Source of the DNA: Kineococcus rhizosphaerae | GTDB taxonomy: Bacteria > Actinomycetota > Actinomycetes > Actinomycetales > Kineococcaceae | DNA length: 64,000 nt | Direction of reading: 5' to 3' | Assembly (NCBI RefSeq): GCF_003002055.1 | Contig: NZ_PVZF01000001.1 | Span: forward strand, 744,001-808,000 | Shown: in pieces, positions 2,487 through 61,326 of the stretch | How the letters are laid out: each line of letters opens with the position of its first letter | How positions within the stretch are numbered: the stretch's first letter is position 1 | Notes under the pieces: generated by a model | Databases searched by the model: none | What the model was told of the DNA's origin: nothing | What the model saw: only the letters and a program-made list of their open reading frames with translations | Made by a program: the position numbers and the translations under genes

Positions 2487-2502
2487 CCGTACACGTGTTC
2501 GA
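2487..2502 (-). promoter_or_regulatory. LexA (SOS) box upstream of recA
   Basis: The minus strand reads TCGAACACGTGTACGG. The actinobacterial LexA consensus is TCGAAC-N4-GTTCGA: the left half matches perfectly and the right half differs at two bases. It sits in the 200-base space between recA and the divergent lactonase-like gene, about 145 bases before the recA start. The assignment combines the sequence match with the known SOS control of recA in this phylum. Confidence 0.72.
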
Positions 2503-2549
2503 TCGGAAGTCGACCGTGACCGGGCGTGTCGGGTCGGCCGGAGGATCAC

Positions 2550-2555
2550 TAGGGT
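2550..2555 (+). promoter_or_regulatory. -10 box TAGGGT of a likely leaderless transcript
   Basis: TAGGGT is followed by 7 bases and then GTG at 2563. The spacing puts the transcription start at or next to that codon, which is why GTG 2563 is chosen over the GTG at 2557. A GGAGG at 2540-2544 is an alternative ribosome site for the 2557 start. Confidence 0.55.
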
Positions 2556-2562
2556 CGTGCCC

Positions 2563-4052: not shown

Positions 4053-4117
4053 CGCGAACGGGTGGTCCCCGCGGCGGCACGCCGTCCGGGCTCCGACGGC
4101 GCACCTAGCGTGGGCGG

Positions 4118-4489: not shown

Positions 4490-4498
4490 GGCCCGGCG

Positions 4499-4726
4499 TC
4501 AGCGTCGCTTCGGCGGCCGCGGGTCCTTGCCCAGCCGGCGCTCCTCCGGCACGTCCATGGCGTCGCACAGGGCCCGCCAGACCGCCTTGGGGTCGACCCC
4601 GGCGTCGAGGGCCTCGCGCCCGGTCCGGTCCTCCAGGGCCAGCAGGTGCTGGTCGGCGACGAGGGAGCGGCCGTAGGCGTCCCCGAACTCGTCGGTGACC
4701 AGGGTCCAGAACTCGCTGACTCGCAC
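4499..4726 (-). CDS. DUF3046 protein
   Basis: A 75-residue protein beginning VRVSEFWTLVTDEFGDAYGR, the typical start of the DUF3046 family, which in actinobacteria usually lies close to recA. It ends in a basic tail (KDPRPPKRR). The function is unknown. The start is GTG at 4726, preceded after 6 bases by CACCCT at 4733-4738, a weaker form of the leaderless -10 box. It is divergent from lhr. Here it is separated from recA by four genes. Confidence 0.82.
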   Translation of the reverse strand: MRVSEFWTLVTDEFGDAYGRSLVADQHLLALEDRTGREALDAGVDPKAVWRALCDAMDVPEERRLGKDPRPPKRR

Positions 4727-4780
4727 CGGGACAGGGTGCCACGGGCGGCGTGTGTCGGAGGTCGGTGGTGTCATGACCCG

Positions 4781-7700
4781 ATGAGCCCGACGCGACCCGG
4801 CAGCCCCGGCGAGGTCCCCTCCCCCCTGGACGCGCACGAGGTGCTGGGCCGGTTCTCCGAGGCCACCCGCGCGTGGTTCACGGGCGCCTTCGACGCCCCC
4901 ACCCCCGCCCAGCTCGGCGCGTGGGACGCCGTCAGCCGCGGGCAGCACGCCCTCGTCGTGGCCCCCACGGGGTCGGGCAAGACGCTGTCGGCGTTCCTGT
5001 GGGCCCTGGACGGGCTGGCCGGCGAACCGGTCCCCGAGGACAAGGACCACCGCTGCCGGGTGCTGTACGTCTCGCCCCTGAAGGCCCTGGCCGTCGACGT
5101 CGAGCGGAACCTGCGCTCCCCGCTGACCGGCATCCGGCAGGCCGCGCAACGGCTCGGGCTGCCGGTGCCCGACGTGCGCGTCGGGGTCCGCTCGGGCGAC
5201 ACGTCGACGGAGGAGCGCCGGGGTTTCACCCGCACCCCGCCGGACGTCCTCATCACCACGCCGGAGTCGCTGTTCCTGCTGCTGACCTCCAAGGCCCGCG
5301 AGCAGCTGCGCGGCGTCCGCACGGTCGTGCTCGACGAGGTGCACGCCATGGCGGGGTCCAAGCGCGGGGCGCACCTGGCGGTGTCGCTGGAACGGCTCGA
5401 CGCCCTCGTCACCGCCGCGGGCGGGGAACCGGCGCAGCGGGTCGGGCTGTCGGCGACGGTCCGGCCCGTGCAGACCGTCGCCGAGTGGGTCTCGGGCGGC
5501 CGGCCCGTCGAGGTGGTCCAGCCGCCGTCGACGAAGGAGTTCGACCTCAAGGTCGTCGTGCCCGTGGAGGACATGAGCGAGCTGGACAACTCCGGCCGCG
5601 GCGCCGAGGACCCCGAGGACCTGTCCGGGCAGGCGGCGGGTAACCCGCGCCGGGCGAGCATCTGGCCGCACGTCGAGGAACGCATCGTCGACCTCGTCGC
5701 CGACCACCGCTCCACCCTGGTGTTCTCGAACTCGCGCCGGCTGTCGGAGCGGCTGACGGCCCGGCTCAACGAGATCTGGGACGAGCGGCTCAACCCCGAC
5801 ACCGAGGACGCGGCACCGGCGCGGACGCCGGCCGAGGTGATGGCCCAGGCGGGCACGGCCGGGGGCAAGCCCCCGCTGCTGGCCCGCGCCCACCACGGGT
5901 CGGTGTCGAAGGAGCAGCGCTCGCTCATCGAGGAGGACCTCAAGGCCGGCCGGCTGCCTGCGGTCGTGGCGACGTCGAGCCTGGAGCTGGGCATCGACAT
6001 GGGCGCGGTCGACCTCGTCGTGCAGGTCGAGTCCCCGCCCAGCGTGGCCAGCGGGCTGCAGCGCGTGGGCCGCGCCGGCCACCAGGTCGGGGCGGTCTCG
6101 CGCGGGGTGCTGTTCCCGAAGTTCCGCGGCGACCTCCTGCAGACCGCGGTGGTCGTCGAGCGCATGCGCGACGGGCGCATCGAGGAACTGCACGTGCCGG
6201 CCAACCCGCTGGACGTGCTGGCCCAGCAGATCGTCGCGATGGTGGCGATGGACGAGTGGACGGTGCCGGACCTGCTGGTCCTGGCGCAGCGGGCCGCGCC
6301 GTTCGCCACGCTGTCGCGCCCGATCCTCGAGGCGGTCCTCGACATGCTCTCGGGCCGCTACCCCAGCGACGAGTTCGCCGAGCTGCGCCCCCGCCTGGTG
6401 TGGGACCGCGTGACCGACACCCTCACCGGACGCCCCGGGGCGCAACGGCTCGCGGTCACCAGCGGCGGCACGATCCCCGACCGCGGCCTGTTCGGCGTGT
6501 TCCTGGCCTCGGGCGAGGGACCGGGCCGGCGGGTCGGGGAACTGGACGAGGAGATGGTCTACGAGTCCCGCGTCGGCGACGTCATCACCCTGGGCTCCTC
6601 GGCCTGGCGCGTGGAGGACATCACCCACGACCGCGTCCTGGTCACTCCCGCACCGGGCCAGCCCGGCAAGCTGCCGTTCTGGCACGGCGAGGCCCTGGGC
6701 CGCCCGGCCGAGCTCGGCCGGGCCCTGGGCGAGTTCGTCCGCGAGCTCGGGTCCCTCGACGGGGGTTTCTCGGGCACCGCCGCGCGCGAGCGGGTCCTGA
6801 CCGCCGGGCTGGACGACTGGGCGACGGGCAACCTGCTGACGTACCTTTCCGAGCAGCAGGAGGCGACCCGGCACGTCCCGGACGACCGCACCATCGTCGT
6901 CGAACGGTTCCGCGACGAGCTGGGCGACTGGCGGGTCTGCATCCACTCCCCCTTCGGCGGGCAGGTGCACTCCCCGTGGGCCCTGGCCCTGGGGGCCCGG
7001 ATGCGCGAACGGTTCGGCGTCGACGTGCAGGCCATGCCCGCCGACGACGGGATCGTGCTGCGGCTGCCCGACCTGGACCTGCCCGAGGGGCAGGGCCCGG
7101 ACGTGGCCGACCTCGTGGCGCTGGAGGCGGACGAGGTGGCCGAGCTGGTGACGGCCGAGATCGGCGGGTCGGCGCTGTTCGCCTCCCGGTTCCGCGAGTG
7201 CGCCGCCCGAGCCCTGCTGCTGCCCCGCCGCCAGCCCGGGCGCCGTCAGCCCCTGTGGCAGCAGCGCCAGCGCGCCGCGTCGCTGCTGCAGGTCGCCAGC
7301 CGCTTCGCCAGCTTCCCCATCGTGCTGGAGACCGTGCGCGAGTGCCTGTCCGACGTGTTCGACGTGACCGGGCTGGAACAGCTCATGAAGGACCTGGCCT
7401 CGCGGACGGTCCGCGTCGTCGAGGTCGAGTCGGCGCAGCCGTCCCCGTTCGCCCGGGGCCTGATGTTCGGCTACGTCGCGCAGTTCCTCTACGAGGGCGA
7501 CTCCCCCCTGGCCGAGCGCCGGGCCGCGGCCCTCGCCCTGGACCCGAGCCTGCTGGCCGAGCTGCTGGGCCGCGGCGAGGGGGCCGCGCTGCGGGACCTG
7601 CTGGACCCCGAGGCCGTGCAGCGCACCGAGGACGAGCTGCAGCGCCTCGTGGCCGAGCGGAAGTCGACCGACGCCGAGGACGTCGCGGACCTGCTGCGCG

Positions 7701-14613: not shown

Positions 14614-17388
14614 TCAGCGCCGGTCCAGCAGCTCCCAGGCGTCCTCGCCCCCGTCGAGCTCGACGACCTCGGGCTCCCCCGTGGGCTCCACCGCCGTGGG
14701 CGGTTCCTCGCCCCGCATGAGCGCCAGCGTCGCCGGCAGGTCGTCGGGACGGACCAGCACGTCACGGGCCTTGGACCCCTCGCTCGGGCCCACCACCCCG
14801 CGCGACTCCAGCAGGTCCATGAGCCGGCCCGCCTTGGCGAAACCGACCCGCAGCTTGCGCTGGAGCATCGACGTGGACCCGAACTGGGTCGTCACGACCA
14901 GCTCGGTGGCCTGCAGCAGGACGTCGAGGTCGTCGCCGATCTCCTCGTCGACCTGCTTCTTCTGCGCCGCGACCACGACGTCGTCGCGGTAGACCGGCTG
15001 CAGCTGCGACTTCACGTGCGAGACGACGGCTTCGATCTCGCTCTCGGTGACCCAGGCCCCCTGCACGCGCATCGGCTTGGACGCGCCCATCGGCAGGAAC
15101 AGCGCGTCGCCCTGCCCGACGAGCTTCTCCGCCCCGGGCTGGTCCAGGACGACGCGGGAGTCGGCCAGCGAGCTCGTCGCGAACGCCAGCCGCGATGGGA
15201 CGTTCGCCTTGATCAGACCCGTGACGACGTCGACCGACGGGCGCTGCGTGGCCAGGACCAGGTGGATGCCCGCGGCGCGGGCCAGCTGCGTGATGCGCTG
15301 GATCGAGGCCTCGACGTCGCGCGGGGCGACCATCATGAGGTCGGCGAGCTCGTCGACGATCACCAGCAGGTACGGGTAGGGCTGCAGCACGCGCTGCGAG
15401 CCCTCCGGCGGCGTGACCTTGCCCGCCCTGACGGCCTTGTTGAAGTCGTCGACGTGCTTGAACCCGAAGTTGGCGAGGTCGTCGTAGCGGATGTCCATCT
15501 CCCGCACGACCCACTCCAGGGCCTCGGCGGCCTTCTTCGGGTTCGTGATGATCGGCGTGATGAGGTGCGGGATGCCCTCGTAGATCGTCAGCTCGACGCG
15601 CTTGGGGTCGACCAGCACCATGCGCACCTCGTCGGGCGTGGCCCGCATGAGGATCGAGGTGATCATCGAGTTCACGAAGCTCGACTTGCCGGCGCCGGTG
15701 GCCCCGGCCACCAGCAGGTGCGGCATCTTCGCGAGGTTGGCGATGACGAACCCGCCCTCGACGTCCTTGCCGACGCCCATGACCATCGGGTGCTCGCTCG
15801 ACGTCGCCACGTGCGAGCGCAGCACGTCGCCCAGGGACACGGTCTCGCGGTCGGAGTTCGGGATCTCGATGCCGATGGCGGACTTGCCGGGGATCGGCGA
15901 CAGGATCCGGACGTCGGCGCTGGCCACCGCGTAGGCGATGTTCTTGGACAGCTGCGTGACGCGCTCGACCTTCGTGCCGGAACCGAGCTCCACCTCGTAG
16001 CGCGTGACCGTCGGGCCGCGGGAGAACCCCGTCACCCGGGCGTCGATGTCGAACTGGTCCAGCACGCCCGACAGCGCCTCGACGACGCGGTCGTTGGCGG
16101 CGCTGCGCTCCTTGGGCGCCGTGCCGGGCGCCAGGGCCATCGGCTCGGGCAGGGTGTAGGTGACGTCGGGGGCCAGCACCAGCTGCTCGATGCGCGGGGG
16201 CATCGGCGTCGACGGCGGCGCGACCAGGTCCTTGGGCTTGCTCGCCGGGACCGAGGACCCGTCGACGCGGGGGCGGTCCTCGAGCTGCTCGCGCACCGAG
16301 GGCACGTCGGAGGGGACGACCCGGCGCTCCCCCGGCCGCGGCCGGGCGGCGGCGTCCGCCCCGGGCTCGGAGCCGGCGTCGACGACGGCCGCCTGCTCGA
16401 ACGCCTCGTCCCCGACCCGGGGGTCGAGGGGGACGTCGTCCTTCTTGCGACGCCGCTTCGGCTTCTCCTCGAGCTCGGCGTCCGGAGCCGCCTCGATCGC
16501 CCGGGCCGCCCGCTGGCGGGCCAGGGCCCGGGCCGGCAGGTCACCGCGCTCCTGCGGTTCGGGCCGGTGCGGGTGGTGGGTGAGGCGCTCGTAGGCCTCG
16601 TGCAGCCGCGCCGGGATCGCGTGCACCGGGGTCGCGGTCAGCACCAGGACCCCGAAGAACCCCAGCAGCACCAGGATCGGGACCATCACCCACGGCGTCA
16701 GGGCCGTCGTCAGCGGACCGGCGACGAGGAACCCGAGCATCCCCCCGGCGTCGGTCACGGCCCCCGCGCCCTCGGGGCCGGTCGGCGAGGGGGCACCGGT
16801 GGCCAGGTGCACCAGGCCCGCCGCCGACAGGGTCAGGGCGATGGAGCCGACGACCGCCCGGGTCGTGGTCTGCGTGTGGTCGGGGTGGCGCAGCAGGTGC
16901 ACCGCCAACCCGACGAGGACGACGGGCAGCGCGAGCGCGACCTCGCCGAACGTGCCCGCGGCCACGGCGTGGACGACCGCGCCGGCCCGGCCGGGCAGGC
17001 CCCACCACTCGCGGGCGGCGACGACGATCGCGAGGGCCAGCAGGGCGAACCCGGCGCCGTCGCGGCGCAGCTCCGGGTCCAGGTCCCGGGCGCCGGAGCC
17101 GATGCGGCGGGCCGTGCCGCCGACCAGGTGCGCGCACCCCATCCAGATCGCCGAGACCGCCCGCACCGGCCACGAGGGTCCGCTGGGGACCGGGCGGGCG
17201 GGGGCGCGACGAGCGGGCGCGGCCTTGGCGGGGGCGCGGTTGGCCGCCGGACGGGACCCGCCCCGCGCCGCCGTCGACCGCGCCGGGGTCTTGCCCCCGG
17301 AGGACTTCGTGCCACTGCGCGAACCGGTCGCCACCTTGGAGGCCCCTCCCCTACCGCTGGTCGTGCGCGCGTTCGTCCGGGAGGCCAT
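14614..17388 (-). CDS. ftsK: FtsK/SpoIIIE DNA translocase
   Basis: A 924-residue septal DNA pump that moves chromosome ends out of the closing division septum. Residues 1-60 are a basic Arg/Ala/Ser-rich tail, followed by about four membrane segments (for example GAGFALLALAIVVAAREWW and MVPILVLLGFFGVLVLTA). A charged linker leads to the alpha-beta motor with Walker A AGATGAGKSS (Lys568) and Walker B LLVIVDELADLMM, then the ITQLARAAGIHLVLATQRP segment. The C-terminal gamma winged-helix (LLQATELVVTTQFGSTSMLQR) reads KOPS-like sites. The ATG at 17388 is chosen because TACGGT stands 7 bases upstream; this is also where the basic tail starts. Confidence 0.95.
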   Translation of the reverse strand: MASRTNARTTSGRGGASKVATGSRSGTKSSGGKTPARSTAARGGSRPAANRAPAKAAPARRAPARPVPSGPSWPVRAVSAIWMGCAHLVGGTARRIGSGARDLDPELRRDGAGFALLALAIVVAAREWWGLPGRAGAVVHAVAAGTFGEVALALPVVLVGLAVHLLRHPDHTQTTTRAVVGSIALTLSAAGLVHLATGAPSPTGPEGAGAVTDAGGMLGFLVAGPLTTALTPWVMVPILVLLGFFGVLVLTATPVHAIPARLHEAYERLTHHPHRPEPQERGDLPARALARQRAARAIEAAPDAELEEKPKRRRKKDDVPLDPRVGDEAFEQAAVVDAGSEPGADAAARPRPGERRVVPSDVPSVREQLEDRPRVDGSSVPASKPKDLVAPPSTPMPPRIEQLVLAPDVTYTLPEPMALAPGTAPKERSAANDRVVEALSGVLDQFDIDARVTGFSRGPTVTRYEVELGSGTKVERVTQLSKNIAYAVASADVRILSPIPGKSAIGIEIPNSDRETVSLGDVLRSHVATSSEHPMVMGVGKDVEGGFVIANLAKMPHLLVAGATGAGKSSFVNSMITSILMRATPDEVRMVLVDPKRVELTIYEGIPHLITPIITNPKKAAEALEWVVREMDIRYDDLANFGFKHVDDFNKAVRAGKVTPPEGSQRVLQPYPYLLVIVDELADLMMVAPRDVEASIQRITQLARAAGIHLVLATQRPSVDVVTGLIKANVPSRLAFATSSLADSRVVLDQPGAEKLVGQGDALFLPMGASKPMRVQGAWVTESEIEAVVSHVKSQLQPVYRDDVVVAAQKKQVDEEIGDDLDVLLQATELVVTTQFGSTSMLQRKLRVGFAKAGRLMDLLESRGVVGPSEGSKARDVLVRPDDLPATLALMRGEEPPTAVEPTGEPEVVELDGGEDAWELLDRR

Positions 17389-17395
17389 GCGGATC

Positions 17396-17401
17396 ACCGT
17401 A
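17396..17401 (-). promoter_or_regulatory. -10 box TACGGT of ftsK (leaderless)
   Basis: The minus strand reads TACGGT, seven bases, then the ATG of ftsK at 17388. It is the same arrangement as at rimO and dapA and shortens the longest possible frame by 130 residues. Confidence 0.58.
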
Positions 17402-17524
17402 CCCGGGCGCGAGTGCCCCGACCGGGCGAGCACCCAGCCGGACCTCAGCGTCTCCCGGGCGCCCGCGGGACCGTCGCCGACACGCCGGGTCCTGCGCGTC
17501 GGACCGGCACGACAGACTGGCCCG

Positions 17525-18643
17525 ATGCTCCGAGGACCGGACCCGCAGCGCCTCGTCGGCATCGACCTCGCCCGCGCCGTCGCGGTCGTCGGCATGATGG
17601 CGGTCCACGTCCTGCCCGGACCGGACGGTCCCGGCGGCACGCTCCACGCCCTCGCCCACGGCCGGGCCTCGGGCCTGTTCGCGGTGCTGGCCGGCCTGTC
17701 CCTGGGGCTGGCCACGCGGCGCTCGGCCGACCGGCGGGCCGCGGCCCGCACGAGCGTCGCCGTGCGCGGGCTGCTCATCGCCCTCCTCGGGCTGCTGCTC
17801 GTCGAGTCCGGGAGTCGGGTCGCGGTGATCCTGCCGTACTACGGGGTCGCCTTCGTCGTCGTGCTGCCGTTCCTGTGGTGGCCGGCCCGGCGGCTCGCGG
17901 TCCTGGCCGGCTGCTGGCTGGCCCTGGCCCCGCTGGTGTCCTTCGCCGTGCGCGACGCCCTGGGGCTCGAGGCGCAGTACGACCAGCCCACGCTGCCGTG
18001 GCTGGCCCGCCCCGGCGACCTGCTCGAGGCCCTGGCGCTGACGGGCTACTACCCCGTCGTCGGGTGGGCGGGGTACCTGCTGCTCGGGCTGGCCGTCGCC
18101 AAGCTCGACCTGACCGGGACGGCCGCGTGCGTGCGGGTGCTGGGCGCGGGCCTGCTGCTGGCGGCGGGCGCCTGGGCCGCCAGCGCGCTGCTGCTGGGCC
18201 CCGCCGGTGGCCGCGCCGCGCTGGAACGGCTCCACGGCCCCCTGGACGGTCTGGACCTCTACGGCAGCGTCCCCACCGACAGCCGGTGGTGGCTCACGGT
18301 GCTCGTCCCGCACTCGGGCACCCCGTTCGACCTGCTGCACACCGCGGGGACCGCGCTGGTGGTCCTCGGCGCGGCGTGCCTGCTGCCGGGGACGGTGACG
18401 CGGTTCCTGTACCCCGTCGCCGCGCTCGGCGGCATGCCCCTGACGATCTACACCGCGCACGTCCTGGCGCTGGCGGGCACCGACGACACCTCCCTGACGC
18501 TGCTCGCGTTCCACGTCCTGCTCGGTGCGGCGTTCGCGACGCTGTGGCGGCTCACGCTCGGGCGCGGGCCGCTGGAGCTCCTCGTCGGCCGGGTGGCCGA
18601 CGGCGCCGGTCGTCTCCTCACGCGCCCTACGCTGACGTCGTGA
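17525..18643 (+). CDS. Heparan-alpha-glucosaminide acetyltransferase-like membrane protein (DUF1624/DUF418 type)
   Basis: A 372-residue integral membrane protein with about nine or ten hydrophobic helices. The start RLVGIDLARAVAVVGMMAVHVL has the conserved Asp-x-Ala-Arg and the His at the end of helix 1 seen in the acyltransferase-like DUF1624 and DUF418 families, which move acyl groups across or at the membrane. It ends with PLTIYTAHVLAL containing a second conserved His. The ATG at 17525 lies 6 bases after CAGACT (17513-17518). The stop overlaps the AAA+ gene start. The acceptor molecule is unknown. Confidence 0.72.
   Translation: MLRGPDPQRLVGIDLARAVAVVGMMAVHVLPGPDGPGGTLHALAHGRASGLFAVLAGLSLGLATRRSADRRAAARTSVAVRGLLIALLGLLLVESGSRVAVILPYYGVAFVVVLPFLWWPARRLAVLAGCWLALAPLVSFAVRDALGLEAQYDQPTLPWLARPGDLLEALALTGYYPVVGWAGYLLLGLAVAKLDLTGTAACVRVLGAGLLLAAGAWAASALLLGPAGGRAALERLHGPLDGLDLYGSVPTDSRWWLTVLVPHSGTPFDLLHTAGTALVVLGAACLLPGTVTRFLYPVAALGGMPLTIYTAHVLALAGTDDTSLTLLAFHVLLGAAFATLWRLTLGRGPLELLVGRVADGAGRLLTRPTLTS
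18628..18633 (+). promoter_or_regulatory. -10 box TACGCT of the AAA+ gene
   Basis: TACGCT is followed by GACGTC and the GTG at 18640. It lies inside the last codons of the upstream gene, so the AAA+ ATPase may have its own leaderless transcript in addition to read-through. Confidence 0.5.
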
Positions 18644-40639: not shown

Positions 40640-40822
40640 GGGGTTCCTCCTCAGGGTTGTGTGCGGTGTGCGACACCCGCGCGCCCCCGGCCTTCGATCG
40701 AGACCCACGGACCGGGGATCTCTCCCGGGGTTCCGGAGGCCACTACCGAGGACCGGCGCGACGCTGCGCGATGTCGCGACTCGTCAGGGTGAGTCTGCCG
40801 CGAGTGCGGCGGGAATGCGCAA

Positions 40823-50497: not shown

Positions 50498-51468
50498 CAG
50501 CGGTTCTCCTCCGGGTTCCGGTTCTGGTTCTGGTTCTGCCCGGAGCGGTTCCGGACGGTGAGGGCGGCGCAGCCGACGACGACGAGGGCGCCGACGACGA
50601 CGGACCACGACAGCGGTTCGCGCAGGAACAGCAGGGCCCAGGCGATCGTCAGGACGGGTTGCACGAGCTGCACCTGGCTGACGCGGGCCATCGGCCCGAT
50701 CGCCAGGCCTCGGTACCAGGCGAAGAACCCCAGGTACATGCTCACGACCGCCAGGTAGCCGAACGCCAGCCACTGCCCGGCGCTGGCGTGCGGGGGTTCG
50801 GCGGCGGCCGAGACGGCGCTCAGCGCGAGCACCACGGGCAGCGCCACCACCAGGGCCCACGAGACCGTCTGCCACGCACCGAGTTCGCGGGCGAGCAGAC
50901 CACCCTCGGCGTACCCGACGGCGGCCGCGACGACGGCGCCGACGAGCAGCAGGTCGCTGCCGCGGACGTCGCCGAACCCCGAGGGCCCGGTGGTGGCGAA
51001 CCCGACGGCGGCGACGGCTCCGGCCGCGGCGAACCCCCAGAACCGCCGGCCGGGGCGTTCCCCCGTGCGCAGGACGGCGGCGAGCGCGGTGGCGGCGGGC
51101 AGGACCGCGATGACGACGGCGCCGTGCGCGGCGGGCACGGTGCGCAGCGCGTACGACGTCAGCAGCGGGAAACCCAGGACGATCCCGGCGGCGACCACGC
51201 CCAGGCGCACGAGCTGGGCCCGGGTCGGCCGGCGCTGGCGGGTCAGGCGCAGGGCGACGGCGGCCAGCAGCGCGGCCACCACGGCCCGGCCCGCCCCGAT
51301 GAACAGCGGGGACAGCCCGACCACGGCCACCCGGGTCAGGACCACGGTGAACGAGAAGGCGAGGACGCCGAGCAGACCCCACCCGAGCCCGGCGCGGCCG
51401 GCCGGTGACACCGGGGCACCCGGTAACACCGGGGCACCCTGGTGAGTAACGCTACTGTTGCTAGCCAT
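50497..51468 (-). CDS. EamA/DMT-family transporter
   Basis: A 323-residue permease with ten hydrophobic helices in two EamA halves: GWGLLGVLAFSFTVVLTRVAVV, LFIGAGRAVVAALLAAVAL and so on in the first half, then SVVVGALVVVGCAALTV at the end. Members export amino acids or other metabolites. The C-terminal tail QNQNQNRNPEENR is polar. The ATG at 51468 overlaps, on the other strand, the ATG of the MocR regulator, so the regulator very likely controls it. Two 18-bp direct repeats fall inside its first codons. Confidence 0.87.
   Translation of the reverse strand: MASNSSVTHQGAPVLPGAPVSPAGRAGLGWGLLGVLAFSFTVVLTRVAVVGLSPLFIGAGRAVVAALLAAVALRLTRQRRPTRAQLVRLGVVAAGIVLGFPLLTSYALRTVPAAHGAVVIAVLPAATALAAVLRTGERPGRRFWGFAAAGAVAAVGFATTGPSGFGDVRGSDLLLVGAVVAAAVGYAEGGLLARELGAWQTVSWALVVALPVVLALSAVSAAAEPPHASAGQWLAFGYLAVVSMYLGFFAWYRGLAIGPMARVSQVQLVQPVLTIAWALLFLREPLSWSVVVGALVVVGCAALTVRNRSGQNQNQNRNPEENR
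51404..51439. repeat. Two 18-bp direct repeats near the transporter/regulator start
   Basis: GGTGACACCGGGGCACCC (51404-51421) is followed directly by GGTAACACCGGGGCACCC (51422-51439), and then by a shorter GGTGAGTAAC. They lie 28-63 bases before the MocR start and within the first codons of the transporter. MocR regulators often bind direct repeats, so these may be their operator; they also encode two repeats of VLPGAP/VSPAGR type residues. Confidence 0.6.
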
Positions 51469-52873
51469 GGACGAGGGTAGCAGCGACCGCATCGTCGCGA
51501 GCCTGCGAGCGTGGATCGCCACCGTGCCCGCCGGCACCCGGGTGCCCTCCAACCGGGCCCTGTGCGCCCGGCACGCCGCCAGCCCGGTGACGGTGCAGAA
51601 GGCGGTACGCACCCTGACGACCCTGGGGCTCGTCGAGAGCCGTCCCGGCGTGGGGACGTTCGTGCGCGCCGAGCGCACCCCCCGCCTCGTCGACCACTCC
51701 TGGCAGAGCGCCACGCTGGGTTCGCGCAGCACCCCGCTGGGCACGGCATCCGCCCAGCGGGCCGTGAACCCCGACGCGGTCGCCCTGCACTCCGGCTACC
51801 CCGCCCCCGAACTGCTGCCCGAACGCCTCGTGCGCGCGGCGCTGGCCCGCGCGACCCGCGGCGCGGCCGCGGTGTCCCGCTCCCCCGCCGGCGGCGAGCC
51901 GGGTCTGCAGGCCTGGTTCGCGGGCGAACTCGCCCGGCACACCCCGCCCGGCGTCCAGCCGCCGGGGGCGCGCGACGTGCTCGTCGTCCCGGGCAGCCAG
52001 AGCGCGCTCAGCTCCGTGTTCCGCGCCGTCGTCGGCCCGGGCCGGCCGCTGCTGGTGGAGTCCCCGACGTACTGGGGGGCGATCCTGGCCGCGGCCCAGG
52101 TGGGGGTGGAACTCGTCCCCGTGCCGGTGGGTGCCGACGGCCCGGACCCCGACGCCCTCGACCAGGCGTTCCGCAGCACCGGGGCCCGCGCGTTCTACGC
52201 CCAGCCGACGTACGCCAACCCCACCGGGACGCAGTGGACGCCCGAGCTGGGGCAGGCCGTCCTCGACGTCGTCCGGCGCCACCAGGCGTTCTGCGTCGAG
52301 GACGACTGGGCGCACGACCTGGCGATCGACACCGACCCGCACCCGCTGGCCGCCCACGACGACGCCGGGCACGTCGTGCACCTGCGGTCCCTGACCAAGA
52401 GCGTGTCGCCGGCCCTGCGGGTCGCGGCGATCGTCGCGCGCGGCCCCGTGCGCGAGCGGATCGGCGCCGACCGGGCCGCGGAGACGATGTACGTCAGCGG
52501 TCTGCTGCAGGCCGCGGCGCTCGACGTCGTGAGCCAGCCCGCCTGGCGGGCGCACCTGCGCCGCACCCGGACCCAGCTGCGGGCCCGGCGCGACCTGCTG
52601 GTGGCCGCCGTGCGCGAGCACCTGCCGGCGGCCGTCCTGGACCGGGTGCCCGCCGGGGGCCTGAACCTGTGGTTGCGCCTGCCCGACGGGACGGACACCG
52701 CGGCGCTGGTGCGCGCCTGCGAGGTGCGCGGCGTCGTCATCGCCGACGGCGCCGAGTGGTTCCCCGCCGAACCGTCCGGGGCGTTCGTCCGGCTGAACTA
52801 CTCCGGGCCCGACCCCGAGCGGTTCCCCGGCGCCGTGCGGGTCGTGGCCGAGGCGCTGACCGCCACCCGGTAG
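51467..52873 (+). CDS. MocR/GntR-type regulator with aminotransferase domain
   Basis: A 468-residue regulator. Residues 5-70 are a GntR winged helix-turn-helix (VPSNRALCARHAASPVTVQKAVRTLTTLGLVESRPGVGTFV). Residues 110-460 are a class I aminotransferase-fold domain with PGSQSALSSVFRAVVGPG, QPTYANPTGTQWTPE, VEDDWAHDL and the PLP Lys in LRSLTKSVSPALR. Such proteins sense amines or PLP and act as repressor or activator. The start is ATG 51467, with TACTGT 8 bases upstream; TTG 51458 in frame is an alternative. The neighbour EamA transporter is divergent with overlapping start codons. Confidence 0.9.
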   Translation: MDEGSSDRIVASLRAWIATVPAGTRVPSNRALCARHAASPVTVQKAVRTLTTLGLVESRPGVGTFVRAERTPRLVDHSWQSATLGSRSTPLGTASAQRAVNPDAVALHSGYPAPELLPERLVRAALARATRGAAAVSRSPAGGEPGLQAWFAGELARHTPPGVQPPGARDVLVVPGSQSALSSVFRAVVGPGRPLLVESPTYWGAILAAAQVGVELVPVPVGADGPDPDALDQAFRSTGARAFYAQPTYANPTGTQWTPELGQAVLDVVRRHQAFCVEDDWAHDLAIDTDPHPLAAHDDAGHVVHLRSLTKSVSPALRVAAIVARGPVRERIGADRAAETMYVSGLLQAAALDVVSQPAWRAHLRRTRTQLRARRDLLVAAVREHLPAAVLDRVPAGGLNLWLRLPDGTDTAALVRACEVRGVVIADGAEWFPAEPSGAFVRLNYSGPDPERFPGAVRVVAEALTATR

Positions 52874-53806: not shown

Positions 53807-53827
53807 CCGGCCATGAAAGCGGACGGC

Positions 53828-53862
53828 GGCTCACGTGCGCACACCCGGTGCTCACGTGAGCA
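53828..53862. promoter_or_regulatory. Tandem operator pair between sorC-type gene and first dehydrogenase
   Basis: A perfect palindrome TGCTCACGTGAGCA (53849-53862) and a 12-of-14 copy GGCTCACGTGCGCA (53828-53841) are centred 21 bp apart, two helical turns, fitting a tetrameric regulator. The second copy is 22 bases from the regulator start, so autoregulation is likely. Confidence 0.72.
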
Positions 53863-53868
53863 GCGCGG

Positions 53869-53897
53869 TTGACCCGGCGCGCGGCGGCGCCGAACAT
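53869..53897 (+). promoter_or_regulatory. Promoter of the first dehydrogenase gene
   Basis: TTGACC (-35) is separated by 17 bases from GAACAT (-10, weak). The operator palindrome ends 6 bases upstream of the -35 element. The leader to GTG 54021 would be about 115 bases; I see no other element in it apart from the AGGAGG ribosome site. Confidence 0.6.
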
Positions 53898-54020
53898 TCC
53901 GCCGGGGTCGCAGCGCCGGGTCCTCGCCGTCGAGACCGGGCGGTGCGCACGGGTTCCAGAGCCGGGACCTGCCCGCGCACGACCGCGCACCCCGACCCGC
54001 ACCCCGACCAGGAGGACGCC

Positions 54021-54809
54021 GTGAGCACCGAGACGAGCACCGAACCCACCGACGAGGCCGTCGACCTGTCCTTCCGCCTCGACGGGCGCACCGCCCTCAT
54101 CACCGGCGGCGCCTCCGGCATCGGCAGCGCCATCGCCGGGGCGTTCGCCGAGGCCGGCGCCCGGGTCGTCGTGGTCGACCTGAACGCCGAGGCCGCCCGG
54201 GCGCGGGCCGAGGCGCTGCCCCGCTCCAGCGCCGGCGAGCACCTGGCCCTGGCCGGGAACGTCGCCGACCCCGCCTCGGTCGCCGAGTTCGCGGCGGCCG
54301 CCGGCTCCGTCGACGTGCTGGTCACCTGCGCCGGCATCGTCGACCTGGCCCCGGCCGAGGAGCTGGACCCCGCGGTGTTCACCCGCACGCTGGCCATCAA
54401 CCTCACCGGCACGTTCCTCACCGCCCAGGCCGTCGGGCGCGGGATGCTCGAGCGCGGCCGCGGGAAGGTCATCACCATGGCCTCCCAGGCCGCCACCGTA
54501 GCCCTCGACGGTCACGCCGCCTACTGCGCCTCCAAGGCCGGGGTCGTCGGCCTCACCAAGGTCCTGGCCTCGGAGTGGGCCGGGCGCGGGGTGACCGCGA
54601 ACTCCATCTCTCCGACCGTCGTCCTGACCGACCTGGGCCGCAAGGCGTGGGAGGGACCCAAGGGCGAGGCCGCCAAGGCGCAGATCCCCACGGGCCGCTT
54701 CGCGCTGCCGCGCGAGATCGCCGGGGCGGCGCTGTTCCTGGCCTCCGGGGCCTCGGACATGGTCAACGGCGCCGACCTCGTCGTCGACGGCGGGTACACG
54801 ATCCGCTGA
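54021..54809 (+). CDS. SDR-family polyol dehydrogenase (D-threitol-dehydrogenase-like)
   Basis: A 262-residue short-chain dehydrogenase. The NAD-binding motif is TGGASGIG (residues 31-38), the catalytic Ser is in TMASQAA, and the Tyr-x-x-x-Lys is AYCASKAG. Sequences such as NSISPTVVLTDLGRKAW and the end [10 protein letters not shown] remind me of D-threitol and similar polyol dehydrogenases, which give a ketose; this is recall, not a search. A 15-residue Thr/Glu-rich extension precedes the fold. GTG 54021 has an AGGAGG ribosome site. It has its own promoter with the shared operator. Confidence 0.82.
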   Translation: MSTETSTEPTDEAVDLSFRLDGRTALITGGASGIGSAIAGAFAEAGARVVVVDLNAEAARARAEALPRSSAGEHLALAGNVADPASVAEFAAAAGSVDVLVTCAGIVDLAPAEELDPAVFTRTLAINLTGTFLTAQAVGRGMLERGRGKVITMASQAATVALDGHAAYCASKAGVVGLTKVLASEWAGRGVTANSISPTVVLTDLGRKAWEGPKGEAAKAQIPTGRFALPREIAGAALFLASGASDMVNGADLVVDGGYTIR

Positions 54810-54822
54810 TCCACCGGCCCGT

Positions 54823-54836
54823 TGCTCACGTGAGCA
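54823..54836. promoter_or_regulatory. Operator palindrome upstream of the transporter operon
   Basis: TGCTCACGTGAGCA, identical over 14 bp to 53849-53862, and followed after 6 bases by a -35 element in the same way. A half-matching copy (TTGACACCTGAGCG, 9 of 14) overlaps that -35 element about 20 bp downstream. Confidence 0.75.
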
Positions 54837-54842
54837 GCCTGA

Positions 54843-54871
54843 TTGACACCTGAGCGCGGTCCCGGAAACCT
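54843..54871 (+). promoter_or_regulatory. Promoter of the ABC transporter operon
   Basis: TTGACA (-35), a 17-base spacer and AAACCT (-10). It should start a leader of about 145 bases before the ATPase gene, containing the short reading frame at 54932. Confidence 0.62.
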
Positions 54872-54931: not shown

Positions 54932-55027
54932 ATGACCCGTGCGGTCCGGCGGGTCGCCGCGGACACCCCCGGCGACCCGCGCCCCGAACCCCGCCCCCGC
55001 TGCACCCCGGACGGTGGGGCCGCGTGA
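54932..55027 (+). CDS. Possible 31-codon leader peptide
   Basis: ATG 54932 opens a 31-codon frame (MTRAVRRVAADTPGDPRPEP at the start), Arg/Pro-rich, whose TGA overlaps the GTG start of the ATPase gene (GTGA). GGAG lies 8 bases upstream. It could couple translation of the ATPase to the leader or be a chance frame. No homology is known to me. Confidence 0.35.
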   Translation: MTRAVRRVAADTPGDPRPEPRPRCTPDGGAA

Positions 55028-56568
55028 GCACGCAGACCACCACCGCCGTCCTGGAGTGCCGGGACCTGCGCAAGTCCTTCGGCGGCGTCCCCGTCCTCAA
55101 GGGCGTCTCCCTGCGCCTGGAACTGGGGACCGTCACCGCGCTGGCCGGCGAGAACGGCGCCGGAAAGTCCACCATGATGAAGATCGCCGCCGGTCAGTAC
55201 CGCGCCGACGAGGGGTCGGTGCTGGTCCAGGGCGAGGAACTCGCCGCGGGCAGCATCCGCGACTCCCACCGCCTCGGCGTCGCGATCGTGCCGCAGGAAC
55301 TGGCCTCCATCGCGCACATGACGGTCTACGAGAACCTGTTCGTGGGCCGCGAGCTGAAGACCCGCCTCGGCACGCTGGACCGCCGCCGGATGGCCGCGGA
55401 GGCCGGCCGGATGCTGGAGGTGTTCGGCGTCGCCATCGACCCCGGCGCCCGGATGGGCACCCTGCCCGTGGGGTTGCAGCAGATCGTCGAGATCGTCAAG
55501 AACTCCTCGCGCGGCGCCCAGGTCGTGCTGCTCGACGAACCCTCCTCGGCGATCAGCGAACGCGAGGTCGAGGGCCTGTACCGGGTCGTGCGGCAACTGC
55601 GCGACCAGGGGGTGGCCATCATGTTCACCACCCACAAGATGGCCGAGATCCGCGACCTGGCCGACCGGGTCGTCGTGCTGCGCGACGGTGGCCTCGTCCT
55701 GGACGAGGCCATGACCGACGTGTCCGACGACGACATCGTCACCGCCATGATCGGCCGGGAGCTGGAGGACCTGTTCCCGCCCGTGCGGACCGTGCCCACC
55801 GACGCCGACGTCGTCCTCACTGTGCAGGGCCTCGCCGTCACCGGGCAGCCGGGGACGGTGGACCTGCAGGTGCGGCGAGGGGAGATCCTCGGTCTGGCCG
55901 GGCTCGTCGGAGCCGGGCGCACCGAACTGCTGGAGGGGATCTTCGGGGTCCGGCCCACCACCGCCGGGCGGATCACCGTCGCCGGCCGCGACGTGCGGCG
56001 CAAGAACCCCGCCGCCGCCATCACCGCCGGGATGGCGCTGGTCCCCGAGGACCGCAAGCACGCCGGGGCTGTCATGGGGTTGTCCGTGCTGGACAACGGG
56101 ACCCTGCCGCGGCTGAGGAACTTCTCCGTCGCCGGCTGGCTCAAGGGCGCCTCCCGCACCCGCGCCGTGGGCCAGGCCATGGAGTCGGTCCGGCTGCGCA
56201 GCCGCGGGCTGTCCCAGGACGTCGGCACCCTGTCCGGCGGGAACCAGCAGAAGGTCGTCCTGGCCCGCTGGCTCACCGAGCACGTCGACGTGCTGCTGCT
56301 GGACGAACCCACCCGCGGCGTCGACGTCGGGGCCCGCTCGGAGATCTACCGCATCATCGCCGACCTCGCCTCGGCCGGGATGGCCGTCGTCATGGCCTCC
56401 TCGGACATGACCGAGGTCCTGGGCCTGTCGCACCGGGCCCTGGTCCTGCGCGACGGCGGGGTCGTCGGCGAACTGGACCGCGACGAGCTCGACGACCCCG
56501 GCGTGCAGGAACTCATCTTCCGGCTCAGCTCGGGCCTGTCCCCCCGCACCGACACGAAGGACGCCTGA
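55024..56568 (+). CDS. RbsA-type sugar ABC transporter ATPase
   Basis: A 514-residue tandem ATPase of the ribose/xylose type (CUT2). The first half has Walker A GENGAGKST, a degenerate signature LPVGLQQ and Walker B VVLLDEPSSAI. The second has the usual altered Walker A GLVGAGRTE, signature LSGGNQQK and Walker B VLLLDEPTRGV. It powers uptake of a sugar or sugar alcohol. Its GTG overlaps the short leader frame, and its stop overlaps the permease start by one base (TGATG). Confidence 0.92.
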   Translation: MSTQTTTAVLECRDLRKSFGGVPVLKGVSLRLELGTVTALAGENGAGKSTMMKIAAGQYRADEGSVLVQGEELAAGSIRDSHRLGVAIVPQELASIAHMTVYENLFVGRELKTRLGTLDRRRMAAEAGRMLEVFGVAIDPGARMGTLPVGLQQIVEIVKNSSRGAQVVLLDEPSSAISEREVEGLYRVVRQLRDQGVAIMFTTHKMAEIRDLADRVVVLRDGGLVLDEAMTDVSDDDIVTAMIGRELEDLFPPVRTVPTDADVVLTVQGLAVTGQPGTVDLQVRRGEILGLAGLVGAGRTELLEGIFGVRPTTAGRITVAGRDVRRKNPAAAITAGMALVPEDRKHAGAVMGLSVLDNGTLPRLRNFSVAGWLKGASRTRAVGQAMESVRLRSRGLSQDVGTLSGGNQQKVVLARWLTEHVDVLLLDEPTRGVDVGARSEIYRIIADLASAGMAVVMASSDMTEVLGLSHRALVLRDGGVVGELDRDELDDPGVQELIFRLSSGLSPRTDTKDA

Positions 56569-57566
56569 TGGCCACCACCCAGCTCGACACCACCGCGGTC
56601 CCCGCCCAGCGGCGGCGGTTCTCCCGGGAGTGGATCGTCGCCCAGCTCATCCGCCGCGCGATGCTCATCGTGATGCTGCTGGTCATCGCGTTCTTCTCCT
56701 ACCGCTCCCTGCGGTTCTCCTCCCCCGAGAACCTGCAGAACATCCTCATCGCCGCCGCCCCGTTCGCCCTCATCGCCCTCGGGCAGACGCTGGTCATCCT
56801 CACCGGCGGCATCGACCTGTCCGTCGGCTCGGTCATCGCCGTGGCCGCCATGACGTCGGCCGCGGTGGCCAAGGCGAACCCCGGGCAGGTATGGCTGACC
56901 GTCCTGTCCGCCCTCGTGGTCGGCCTGCTGGCCGGGACCGTCAACGGGATCCTCGTGTCCCGGGTGGACGTCCCGCCGTTCATCGCCACCCTCGGCATGC
57001 TCACCGCGGGCTCGGGGGTCGCCTACGTCATCGGCGGCGGCGCCCCGATCAACGGGCTGCCGGCGGAGTTCGGTTCCATCGCCAACACCAAGGTGCTGGG
57101 CCTGCAGATCCCCGTCATCGTCATGATCGTCGGCATCGTCGCGCTGGGGATCGTCATGCGCCGCACCAGCTACGGCATGCGCGTCTACGCCGTCGGCGGC
57201 AACCGGGTCGCCGCCGAGATCGCCGGCGTCAACGCCCGGCGCACCCTGTTCAGCGTCTACGCCCTGTCGGGGGTGCTGGCCGGGCTGTCGGGCGTCATGC
57301 TCGCCTCCCGCGTCATCTCCGGCCCCCCGAACCTGGGCCAGGGCTACGAACTGGACGCCATCGCCGCCGTCGTCATCGGCGGCGCGTCCCTCATGGGCGG
57401 ACGCGGCACGGTCTGGGGCACCGCCCTGGGCCTGCTGCTCATCCAGACCCTCAACAACGGCCTGGACCTGCTGCTGGTCCCCACCTACTGGCAGGACGTC
57501 ATCAAGGGCGTCCTGATCGTCGCCGCCGTCGCCGTCGACGTGTGGTCCACCAAGCGCCGCGCCTGA
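56568..57566 (+). CDS. RbsC-type sugar ABC transporter permease
   Basis: A 332-residue permease of the BPD_transp_2 family. About ten hydrophobic helices include MLIVMLLVIAFFSY and FALIALGQTLVILTGGIDLSVGS, the family signature. The coupling region GMRVYAVGGNRVAAEIAGVNARRTLFSVYALSG contacts the ATPase, and GRGTVWGTALGLLLIQTLNNGL lies near the end. It works with the ATPase just upstream and the binding protein just downstream. Confidence 0.92.
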   Translation: MATTQLDTTAVPAQRRRFSREWIVAQLIRRAMLIVMLLVIAFFSYRSLRFSSPENLQNILIAAAPFALIALGQTLVILTGGIDLSVGSVIAVAAMTSAAVAKANPGQVWLTVLSALVVGLLAGTVNGILVSRVDVPPFIATLGMLTAGSGVAYVIGGGAPINGLPAEFGSIANTKVLGLQIPVIVMIVGIVALGIVMRRTSYGMRVYAVGGNRVAAEIAGVNARRTLFSVYALSGVLAGLSGVMLASRVISGPPNLGQGYELDAIAAVVIGGASLMGGRGTVWGTALGLLLIQTLNNGLDLLLVPTYWQDVIKGVLIVAAVAVDVWSTKRRA

Positions 57567-57617: not shown

Positions 57618-58703
57618 GTGTCCACGAACCCCGCCCTGAACCGCCGCACGCTGCTCAGCGCCTCCTTCGGGATCGGCGCCCTGTCCCTGGCCCTGGCCGC
57701 CTGCGGGGCCGGCGACCCCACCGCGAACAAGGGTTCCGGTGACGACGCCTCCGGCGGCGCGAAGAAGCTGCGCATCGGCGTCAGCGTGTACGACATGAGT
57801 TCGTTCATCACCGCCGGCAAGGAGGGCATGGACGCCTACGCCAAGGCCAAGGGGATCGAACTGCTCTGGAACTCGGCTAGCCTGGACGTCAACACCCAGG
57901 CCTCCCAGGTCGACCAGTACGTCAACGCCGGCGTGGACGCCATCATCGTCGTCCCCGTCCAGGCCGACTCCCTGCAGCCGCAGGTCGCCGCGGCCAAGGC
58001 CGCCGGGATCCCCCTCGTGCCGGTCAACGCCGAACTGAACTCCACCGACATCTCCGGCAACGTCCAGCCCGACGACGTCGCCGCCGGTGCCGCGGAGATG
58101 CAGATGATGGCCGACACCCTCGGCGGCAAGGGCGGCATCGTCGTCCTGCAGGGCCCGCTGGGCCAGTCCGGGGAGCTGAACCGCACCAAGGGCATCAAGC
58201 AGGTCCTGGCGAAGTACCCGGACATCGAGGTGCTCGCCATGGACACCGCGAACTGGAAGCGCGACGAGGCCGTCAACAAGGTCAAGAACTGGATCTCCGC
58301 CTTCGGCGACCGGATCAGTGGTGTGGTCTCGGAGAACGACGACATGGGCCTCGGCGCGCTGCAGGCCCTCAAGGAGGCCGGCAAGACCATCCCGATCGTC
58401 GGCATCGACGGCATCGAGGACGGCCTGAACGCCGTCAAGAGCGGGGAGTTCATCGGGACGATGCTGCAGAACGGCACCGTCGAACTGTCCGCCGGGCTGG
58501 CCGTCGCCGCGGCCATCGCCTCCGGGACCGAGGTGAACACCAAGCCCGTCTACAACATGCCCAAGATCACCAAGGAGAACGTCGACGTCGCCATCCAGCA
58601 CGTCGTCACCGACCGCGCCGCGTTCCTGGCCAAGCTGCCGGACCTTACGGAGAAGAACCTCGCCTCCGGCGACATCGCGAACGAGGGGATCCCGGGGCAG
58701 TGA
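57618..58703 (+). CDS. Sugar-binding lipoprotein of the ABC transporter
   Basis: A 361-residue periplasmic-binding-protein-like (RbsB type) lipoprotein. The signal peptide has a twin-arginine [10 protein letters not shown] and a lipobox ending LALAAC (Cys29), so it may be exported by Tat and lipid-anchored outside. After a Gly/Asp-rich linker come [38 protein letters not shown] and [17 protein letters not shown]. It selects the substrate. The stop overlaps the next dehydrogenase gene by four bases. Confidence 0.9.
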
Positions 58704-59425
58704 CGACCCCGTCCGCCCGCGTCGCCCTCGTCACCGGGGGCGCCGGGGGCATCGGCGCCGCCGTCGTCGCGGCGTTCGAGGCCGAGGGCACCGCCGTCGC
58801 GGTCCTGGACCGCGACGAGCGGGCCCTGGCCGGGGCGGGCGGGCAGTTCCACGTCACGGCCGACGTCACCGACCCCGCGTCGGTGGCCTCGGCCGTGGAC
58901 CGGGTCTTCCAGCGGGCCGGGCGCCTCGACGTCCTCGTCAACTGCGCGGGGATCGCCACCATCGCCCCGGCACTGGACATCGACCTCGCCGGCTGGTCCA
59001 GCACCGTGGCGGTCAACCTCACGGGCAGCTTCGTCGTCGCCCAGGCCGTCGCGCGCCACCTCGCCGCGCACGGCGGGGGCCGCGTCGTGACGATCGCCTC
59101 GCAGGCCGCGATCGTCGGCCTGCCGGGCCACGTCGCCTACGCGGCCTCCAAGGCCGGCCTGCTGGGCATGACCCGGACCCTGGCGCTGGAGTGGGGCCCG
59201 CTGGGCATCACCGTGAACACGGTCTCGCCCACCGTCGTCCTCACCCCCCTGGCCCGGCCCAACTGGGACAACCCCGCCGGGGACGCGCTGCGGGCGCAGA
59301 TCCCCGTCGGGCGCTTCGCCGAACCCGAGGAGGTCGCCGCCGCGGTGCTGTACCTGGCGAGCCCGGCCGCGGCGATGGTCAACGGCCACGACCTCGTCGT
59401 CGACGGCGGGTACACGGTCCGCTGA
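58700..59425 (+). CDS. Second SDR-family polyol dehydrogenase
   Basis: A 241-residue short-chain dehydrogenase similar to the one at 54021: TGGAGGIG (residues 13-20), TIASQAA with the Ser, AYAASKAG with Tyr and Lys, and [18 protein letters not shown], ending [10 protein letters not shown]. The two lie on either side of the transporter genes, suggesting a duplication followed by specialisation, for example on two stereoisomers. It overlaps the binding-protein stop (GTGA), so it is co-translated with the transporter. Confidence 0.85.
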
Positions 59426-59493: not shown

Positions 59494-60534
59494 ATGACCA
59501 CCGGAACGATCCCGACGACCATGCGGGCCAGCGTCCTGCTCAAGCAGGGCGTCATCGAGATGCAGGAACGTCCCGTGCCCACCCCCGGCGACGGCGAGGT
59601 GCTCGTGCGGGTCGCCTCCGTGGGCGTCTGCGGCTCCGACGTCCACTACTACAAGCACGGGCGCATCGGCGACATGGTCGTCACCGCCCCGATCGTCCTG
59701 GGCCACGAGGTCTCCGGCACGGTCGTCGGCGTCGGCCGCGGGGTGAGCGAGGACCGCGTCGGCGACCGCGTCGCCATCGACCCGCAGGTCCCGTGCCGGC
59801 AGTGCCGGCAGTGCAAGACCGGCCGCTCGAACCTGTGCCCGTTCATGGAGTTCTACGCGACCCCGCCCTTCGACGGGACGTTCTGCGACTACGTGACCGC
59901 CCCCGCCGACCAGGCGTACACCGTGCCCGACAGCCTGTCCGACGAGTCCGCCGCGCTGCTCGAACCCCTCTCGGTCGGGCTGTGGGCCGCCCACAAGGCC
60001 GACGTCGGCCCGGGCGACCAGGTGCTCATCGCCGGCGCCGGGCCCATCGGGGCCATGTGCGCGCAGGCCGTGCGCGCCCGCGGCGCGACCGACGTCGTCG
60101 TCACCGACTTCGTCGACTCCCGTCGTGAGCGGATCACCTCCTTCGGGGCCACCCGCGCGCTGCACCCGGTCCAGGACGCGGACGAGATCGCCGCGATCCG
60201 CGCCGACGCGTTCATCGACTGCTCCGGGGCCACGCCCGCCGTGCTGTCGGGCATCGCCTCCACCCGCGGCGGCGGGACCGTCGTCCTCGTCGGCCTGGGC
60301 GCGGAGGAGATGCCGATCCCCGTGCAGCTCATCGCGACCCGCGAGATCAACCTCACCGGGGTGTTCCGCTACATCGACACCTGGCCGCGGGGCATCGCGC
60401 TCACCTCCGCCGGGACGGTCCACCTCGACGACATGGTGACCGCCCGGTACCCGCTCGAGCAGGTCGAGGACGCGCTCAACGCCGACTCCGACCCGTTGAG
60501 CATGAAGGCCGTCGTCGTCGTCAACCCCGCCTGA
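59494..60534 (+). CDS. Zinc-dependent polyol dehydrogenase (sorbitol/xylitol type MDR)
   Basis: A 346-residue medium-chain dehydrogenase. Cys46 in GVCGSDVHYYKHG and the GHE motif form the catalytic zinc site typical of sorbitol and xylitol dehydrogenases. The structural zinc cysteines are Cys101, Cys104, Cys107 and Cys115. Glu in ALLEPLSVGLWA follows, and the nucleotide motif is IAGAGPIGAMCAQAV with VVVTDF behind it, where Asp favours NAD. The ATG at 59494 has GAGGAGAG upstream. It oxidises a polyol to a ketose. Confidence 0.9.
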   Translation: MTTGTIPTTMRASVLLKQGVIEMQERPVPTPGDGEVLVRVASVGVCGSDVHYYKHGRIGDMVVTAPIVLGHEVSGTVVGVGRGVSEDRVGDRVAIDPQVPCRQCRQCKTGRSNLCPFMEFYATPPFDGTFCDYVTAPADQAYTVPDSLSDESAALLEPLSVGLWAAHKADVGPGDQVLIAGAGPIGAMCAQAVRARGATDVVVTDFVDSRRERITSFGATRALHPVQDADEIAAIRADAFIDCSGATPAVLSGIASTRGGGTVVLVGLGAEEMPIPVQLIATREINLTGVFRYIDTWPRGIALTSAGTVHLDDMVTARYPLEQVEDALNADSDPLSMKAVVVVNPA

Positions 60535-60555: not shown

Positions 60556-61326
60556 GTGACCGTCCTGGACAAGTTCTCCCTCGAGGGCCGCGTCGCCCTC
60601 GTCACCGGCGGCTACAAGGGCCTTGGGCGCGGTTTCGCCCAGGCCCTCGCCGAAGCCGGGGCCGACGTGGCCGTCGCCGCCCGCGACGAGCAGGCCTCGG
60701 TCGCCGCGGCCGCCGAGATCGCGGACTCCACCGGCCGCAGGACCCTGGGCCTGCGGATGGACGTCACCTCCCGCCCCGAGGTGGAGGCCGCGATCGCCCG
60801 CGTCACCGAGACCTTCGGGCGCTTCGACGTCCTCGTGAACAACGCCGGCACGTGCGTGCACCGGCCCGCGCTGGAGGTGACCGACGAGGAGTACGACGAC
60901 GTCATCACCACCAACGTCAAGGGGGTGTGGCTGCCCAGCACCGTGGCGGCGCGGTGGATGGCCGAGCACGGCGGCGGGAACATCGTCAACATCGGCTCCA
61001 TCAGCGCCCAGATCGTCAACCGGCCGCAGCTGCAGCCGGTCTACAACGCCTCCAAGGCGGCCGTGCACCAGCTGACGAAGTCGCTGGCCGCGGAGTGGGC
61101 GCCGTTGGGCATCCGGGTCAACGCCATCGCGCCGGGCTACGTCAAGACGGAGATGGCCCCCGTGGACCGGCCCGAGTTCCGCCGCATGTGGATCGAGGAC
61201 GCCCCCATGCAGCGGTACTCCACGCCCGAGGAGATCGCCGCGACGGTGGTCTACCTCGCCTCGGACGCCTCCAGCTTCTCCACCGGCGCCGTCGTGGTGA
61301 CTGACGGCGGGTACACGCTGTTCTGA
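60556..61326 (+). CDS. Third SDR-family dehydrogenase (sugar alcohol/ketose reductase type)
   Basis: A 256-residue short-chain dehydrogenase: TGGYKGLG (residues 17-24), NNAG, NIGSISAQIVN with the Ser, VYNASKAAV with Tyr and Lys, and VNAIAPGYVKTEM. It ends VVVTDGGYTLF. It is closer to the mannitol and sorbose reductase group than to the two SDRs above. GTG 60556 has GGAAGGA upstream, 21 bases after the zinc dehydrogenase, so the two are co-transcribed. A strong hairpin closes the operon. Confidence 0.85.
   Translation: MTVLDKFSLEGRVALVTGGYKGLGRGFAQALAEAGADVAVAARDEQASVAAAAEIADSTGRRTLGLRMDVTSRPEVEAAIARVTETFGRFDVLVNNAGTCVHRPALEVTDEEYDDVITTNVKGVWLPSTVAARWMAEHGGGNIVNIGSISAQIVNRPQLQPVYNASKAAVHQLTKSLAAEWAPLGIRVNAIAPGYVKTEMAPVDRPEFRRMWIEDAPMQRYSTPEEIAATVVYLASDASSFSTGAVVVTDGGYTLF

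Follow-up and report, generated by a model that had tools for sequence, protein, structure and literature searches.

The closest described counterpart of the operator reported here is that of DeoR in Bacillus subtilis, which spans -60 to -21 and reads ATTGAACAAAATTTCAAT-TACCAA-TTTACA-TA-TGTTCAA (PMC11229326). DeoR is a tetrameric repressor that requires the full operator, with both halves, for binding in solution, and its direct repeat is located past the -35 hexamer (PMC11229326). Based on this placement and on its coordinates, we infer that TTTACA is the -35 hexamer itself. CggR of B. subtilis likewise binds two operator halves, as a dimer of dimers (PMC11229326). It differs from the regulator described below in the type of its DNA-binding domain and in having its operator downstream of the transcription start. 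The best solved-structure relative is LsrR of Escherichia coli (E value, 3.6e-23), whose gene is divergent from a ribose-type ABC operon, as at our locus; in the lsrR-lsrA intergenic region, we detected neither a GCTCANNTGAGC core nor a palindrome-N6-(-35)-N2-half-site module. SorC of Klebsiella is reported to activate as well as repress. In the literature that we searched, no actinobacterial SorC operator of polyol genes has been named that carries this motif.

We analyzed a 64,000-nucleotide stretch of Kineococcus rhizosphaerae DNA, referred to as the window. The best explanation of the locus, to which we assign a probability of roughly 0.87, is a local polyol uptake and oxidation regulon that would be controlled by a SorC/DeoR-subfamily repressor through a split operator, together with autorepression. 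The predicted regulon comprises the genes for a ribose-type ABC importer and for polyol dehydrogenases (Table 1). The site has the same order of elements and the same N6 and N2 spacers as the DeoR site of dra-nupC-pdp; in both, the -35 box forms the left portion of the right half-operator, and a direct half-site repeat follows downstream. Both regulators consist of a helix-turn-helix (HTH) and a sugar-binding domain, and in both cases the regulator gene is adjacent. Unlike the DeoR site, the Kineococcus site has TGAGCA rather than TTCAA as its half-site, repeated 20-21 bp apart rather than 22, and its target is a polyol importer/dehydrogenase operon, with extra in-phase copies toward the regulator gene.

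Table 1. Positions of the predicted genes and regulatory elements within the window
Feature	Sequence	Position	Strand	Remarks
SorC/DeoR-subfamily regulator, 307 aa		52883..53806	-	Pfam PF04198, PDB matches, Kineococcus orthologs
Outermost operator copy (-41), decayed		53808..53821		6/12 here; 10-12/12 in three relatives
Inferred -10 of leaderless regulator promoter	TTTCAT	53813..53818	-	6 bp before ATG
12/14 operator copy	GGCTCACGTGCGCA	53828-53841		Starts 21 bp (two helical turns) from operator 1 start
Inferred -35 of regulator promoter	GTGCGC	53837..53842	-	Weak; TTGCAC in two relatives
Operator 1, perfect palindrome	TGCTCACGTGAGCA	53849-53862		6 bp (gcgcgg) before TTGAC
-35 of promoter 1	TTGACC	53869-53874	+	6 bp from operator in 12/13 genus palindromes
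-10-like element of promoter 1	GAACAT	53892-53897	+	17-bp spacer; weak, 3/6 vs TATAAT
SDR1, GolD/DthD-family dehydrogenase		54021..54809	+	NF005309, 327 bits vs cut-off 286
Operator 2, perfect palindrome	TGCTCACGTGAGCA	54823-54836		6 bp (gcctga) before TTGAC
-35 of promoter 2	TTGACA	54843-54848	+	Left arm of the right half-operator
9/14 copy, right half-operator TTGACA-cc-TGAGCG	TTGACACCTGAGCG	54843-54856		Overlaps second -35
Right arm of the right half-operator (half-site TGAGCG)		54851-54856		20 bp from the half-site of operator 2
-10-like element of promoter 2	AAACCT	54866-54871	+	17-bp spacer; weak, 2/6 vs TATAAT
Sugar ABC importer ATPase (RbsA/AraG type)		55024..56568	+	
ABC permease (RbsC type)		56568..57566	+	
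Substrate-binding protein (RbsB type)		57618..58703	+	
SDR2, GolD/DthD-family dehydrogenase		58700..59425	+	NF005309, 305 bits vs cut-off 286
Zinc alcohol/polyol dehydrogenase		59494..60534	+	
SDR3 dehydrogenase		60556..61326	+	

The initial annotation had described the same perfect 14-bp palindrome at two places, each 6 bp before a TTGAC -35 element with a 17-bp spacer to a -10, and a 12-of-14 copy 21 bp from the first; all of these elements were found again where it had placed them. It had also named frequent occurrence away from promoters as grounds for rejection. The 5.61-Mb genome contains only two exact copies, both at this locus, whereas window-trained Markov models (order 0-3), used with reversed-pattern controls, predict 0.01-0.03 copies of the exact 14-mer and 0.06-0.19 copies of the broader pattern TGCTCANNTGAGCA in the whole genome by chance. 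The condition set for rejection therefore does not apply. The probability of TTGAC at a given position by chance is about 3e-4. The weaker copies carry no significance singly, as palindrome matches with two mismatches are at background across the genome (14 versus 15 for the reversed control); their significance is in their placement. A search of the genus for the relaxed core GCNCANNTGNGC-N7-TTGAC returned no sites beyond the known ones.

The palindrome alone, as had been proposed, does not describe the operator, and we amend it to the constant unit of palindrome, N6, -35, N2, and half-site in the aligned sites. These sites read palindrome-N6-TTGACA-N2-TGAGCA, which is why we regard the -35 box as one arm of a second half-operator. 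The half-site, TGAGCR, stands 20-21 bp past the right arm of the palindrome and 2-3 bp after TTGAC(A). In an alignment of 16 promoters, 12 from the genus and four from other families, TGAGCA matches best at an offset of +28/29 past the palindrome, with a mean of 4.6 of 6 matches compared to 2.2 (standard deviation, 0.6) averaged over offsets; 15 of the 16 also have a -10-like xAxxxT at a spacer of 17 or 18. The right arm is perfect in relatives (TTGACANNTGAGCA); of the four promoters from other families, three have it perfect (TTGACAcaTGAGCA, TTGACAtaTGAGCA). The 9-of-14 copy noted earlier as overlapping the second -35 was thus correctly placed but is better described as the conserved right half of the operator unit. 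Site 2 and most relatives have the split operator, i.e., a palindrome before the -35 and a direct half-site after it. Window site 1 has no good right half (TGACCCGGCGCGCG, 6/12), so that a tetramer there would need the upstream copy at -21.

An ortholog of the regulator (at least 74% identity) is present in 7 of 11 Kineococcus genomes, namely, the window genome and six others. All seven contain TGCTCANNTGAGCA, with 13 copies in total, and none of the four genomes lacking the ortholog does; by exact calculation, ignoring relatedness, the probability of this split is about 0.003. N6-TTGAC follows 12 of the 13 copies, the exception being the outer copy at the regulator start of genome G009. The same genome has two sites of identical geometry before genes for a zinc dehydrogenase (ADH) and a substrate-binding protein, which were not among the loci read at the outset and were picked up blind. 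TGCTCANNTGAGCA with N6-TTGAC was absent from 286 further genomes of the order. Beyond the genus, regulator homologs of 57-46% identity in other actinobacterial families have the same module adjoining their genes. When the three-part module was searched in 395 genomes of the class, five genomes matched, once each (reversed control, 0), and these same five carry the closest homologs of the regulator (100, 57, 50, 47, and 46%). Every match adjoins the regulator; in the window, it adjoins the SDR1 gene next to it. The three-part pattern was composed with those loci already in view, and what it adds independently is that nothing else matched; likewise, the patterns were generalized once the first orthologous loci were known, which makes co-occurrence partly a product of construction. 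That bias does not extend to the two blind sites or to the lack of stray copies.

The fold of the regulator is settled by solved full-length relatives. Its C-terminal effector-binding domain (residues 61-304) matches Pfam Sugar-bind PF04198 (E value, 1.7e-43), and the best PDB matches over the full length, N-terminal HTH included, are LsrR, DeoR, and SorC. The HTH is of the short DeoR type (about 60 aa), in contrast to the winged helix of CggR (~100 aa); full-length alignment to LsrR and DeoR includes residues 8-60, whereas only the effector-binding domain aligns to CggR. The regulator scores below the equivalog cut-offs for orthologs of either protein, with 109 bits against 420 for DeoR (NF053881) and 108.5 bits against 486 for LsrR (NF011947). 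A threonine aligns with the lysine of the DeoR VVQLKGG motif, which we take to be the residue that binds deoxyribose-5-phosphate covalently. The effector or its binding mode should therefore differ from that of DeoR; polyol phosphates, which had been suggested as effectors, are a guess.

The operator copies around the regulator start are spaced at -41, -21, 0, and +20/21. In that order, they score 10, 10, 12, and 9 of 12 in genome G001; 10, 8, 12, and 8 in G005; and 12, 5, 12, and 8 in G009, where a score of at least 8 has a probability of 0.0014 per place. In the window, decay has left 6/12 in both the -41 and the +21 copies, whereas the -21 copy retains 10/12. Genomes G003 and G010 lack the outer two units and have a single palindrome directly next to the start codon of the regulator. 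Six of the seven genomes have TxxxAT (or TxxxCT) 6 bp before the start codon, with a TGCRC-like sequence 18 bp further upstream in most. The position of this hexamer suggests a leaderless regulator mRNA from a promoter covered by the outer operators, which overlie the inferred -10 and -35. As the regulator start is at most 45 bp from the array and its promoter probably leaderless, autorepression is likely. The initial annotation had proposed from the constant geometry that one tetrameric regulator acts on both transcription units and on its own gene; the geometry is fixed at the two catabolic promoters, and action on the regulator's own gene is likely, although in a different geometry.

Under the mechanism that we propose, one dimer of a regulator tetramer would bind the palindrome directly before the -35, and the second would bind two helical turns downstream, on the degenerate right half-operator formed by the -35 box arm and the TGAGCR arm. 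The tetramer would then cover the -35 and keep RNA polymerase out, up to the point where it is loosened by a sugar-type effector, which is probably a phosphorylated intermediate of catabolism. The spacing of 20-21 bp between operator copies hints indirectly at binding as a tetramer. The in-phase array would also cover the regulator start, giving autorepression. The initial annotation held that repression and activation could not be told apart, but the direction can be argued from the layout. Because this layout equals that of the DeoR repressor operator, with a right half on the -35 box, repression is much more likely than activation at both catabolic promoters, and by analogy with the tetrameric DeoR, the regulator of Kineococcus is expected to act as a repressor that covers the -35.

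We consider it unlikely that the regulator instead activates both promoters from the palindrome in a class II-like manner, with the downstream half-site playing a minor part. A palindrome that ends 6 bp before the -35 and centers near -48 would suit such a role, and the -10 elements are weak, as in promoters needing help, which counts against repression as the best explanation, as does the dual role reported for SorC of Klebsiella. However, activation does not fit with an in-phase second half-operator on and after the -35 that is kept in other families, since a dimer bound there would exclude polymerase, nor with a layout that is that of the DeoR repressor. Another protein binding the palindrome is less probable still, the obvious candidate being a GntR/MocR-type protein (51458-52873) encoded nearby with a DNA-binding domain of its own. 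Across the genus, it is the SorC ortholog that site presence tracks; distant relatives retain SorC plus the module; among SorC paralogs, related palindromes go with the recognition helix; and a relative of the GntR/MocR-type gene adjoins the regulator in only one of six relatives' loci. A third possibility, that both palindromes arose by chance or from a repeat and have no function, is consistent with the background level of matches with two to three mismatches, but with 0.02 copies expected per genome and a position kept in seven species and in other families, this origin is refuted on sequence evidence.

Returning to the SorC/DeoR-subfamily regulator as the protein that probably acts here, we located the upstream regions of SorC paralogs with tblastn and compared them with recognition helices. 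The helix SRFKV(G/A)R in SorC homologs pairs with GCWCANNTGWGC upstream, including CGCTCANNTGAGCG for the paralogs of 35-40% identity, and SRATVSR pairs with TGCACANNTGTGCT. An exception is a large group of homologs of ~42% identity (Streptomyces-like by guess; SRFKVAR helix), for which a scan of 400 bp upstream revealed no core of this type. The Kineococcus paralogs of 35-40% identity share the core GCTCANNTGAGC, accompanied in most by a partner at a distance of 19 bp, but differ in the outer base, C for T (CGCTCANNTGAGCG), and have no TTGAC at +6. A second SorC paralog (L012-L022, L025), which nearly all genomes of the genus possess, has CGCTCANNTGAGCG about 120-220 bp upstream. In a third SorC group (L024, L026-L028, L030), TGCACANNTGTGCT and, after it, a GGACANNTGTGC-like copy lie about 70-85 bp before the regulator.

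The device itself appears to be of an ordinary, familiar kind, which is well supported, and its operator is unusually clear. A predicted actinobacterial SorC repressor thereby gains a precise, testable operator and regulon, and the asymmetric DeoR operator, described in detail at a single Bacillus promoter, is found with unchanged spacers in a second phylum. We tentatively propose, at somewhat less than even odds, that palindrome-N6-(-35)-N2-half-site is an operator grammar common to SorC/DeoR repressors of Firmicutes and Actinobacteria, with the -35 box as an arm of the second operator, and that the two back-to-back tetramer sites of the divergent region can collapse into one shared site when two units (41 bp) are lost, for which G003 and G010 would be examples. 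Both the idea of the -35 as an operator arm and the relation between recognition helix and half-site are now directly testable.

The G009 locus encodes a xylulokinase-type FGGY kinase (413 bits versus an equivalog cut-off of 380), and such a kinase, a SIS-domain sugar-phosphate protein, and an epimerase-like protein are found in both the G009 and distant-family loci. These genes make a pentitol a reasonable guess as the substrate in those relatives. In G009 (L058), transposase genes at 1981-3495, 3803-5218, and 17063-18016 flank and interrupt the locus, and one transposase pair cuts off a third operator, along with the gene for its substrate-binding protein, from the main operon. The window has a 31-codon open reading frame (MTRAVRRVAADTPGDPRP..., 54932-55027, + strand) that lies after operator 2 and before the ABC ATPase gene. 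Its stop codon and the start of the ATPase gene overlap in the sequence GTGA, and G001 has an equivalent frame with substitutions; translational coupling or a leader peptide is possible. An Rfam search of the two leaders gave no match, and the sole Rfam match in the window is an Actino-pnp RNA element at 40686-40757 on the - strand.
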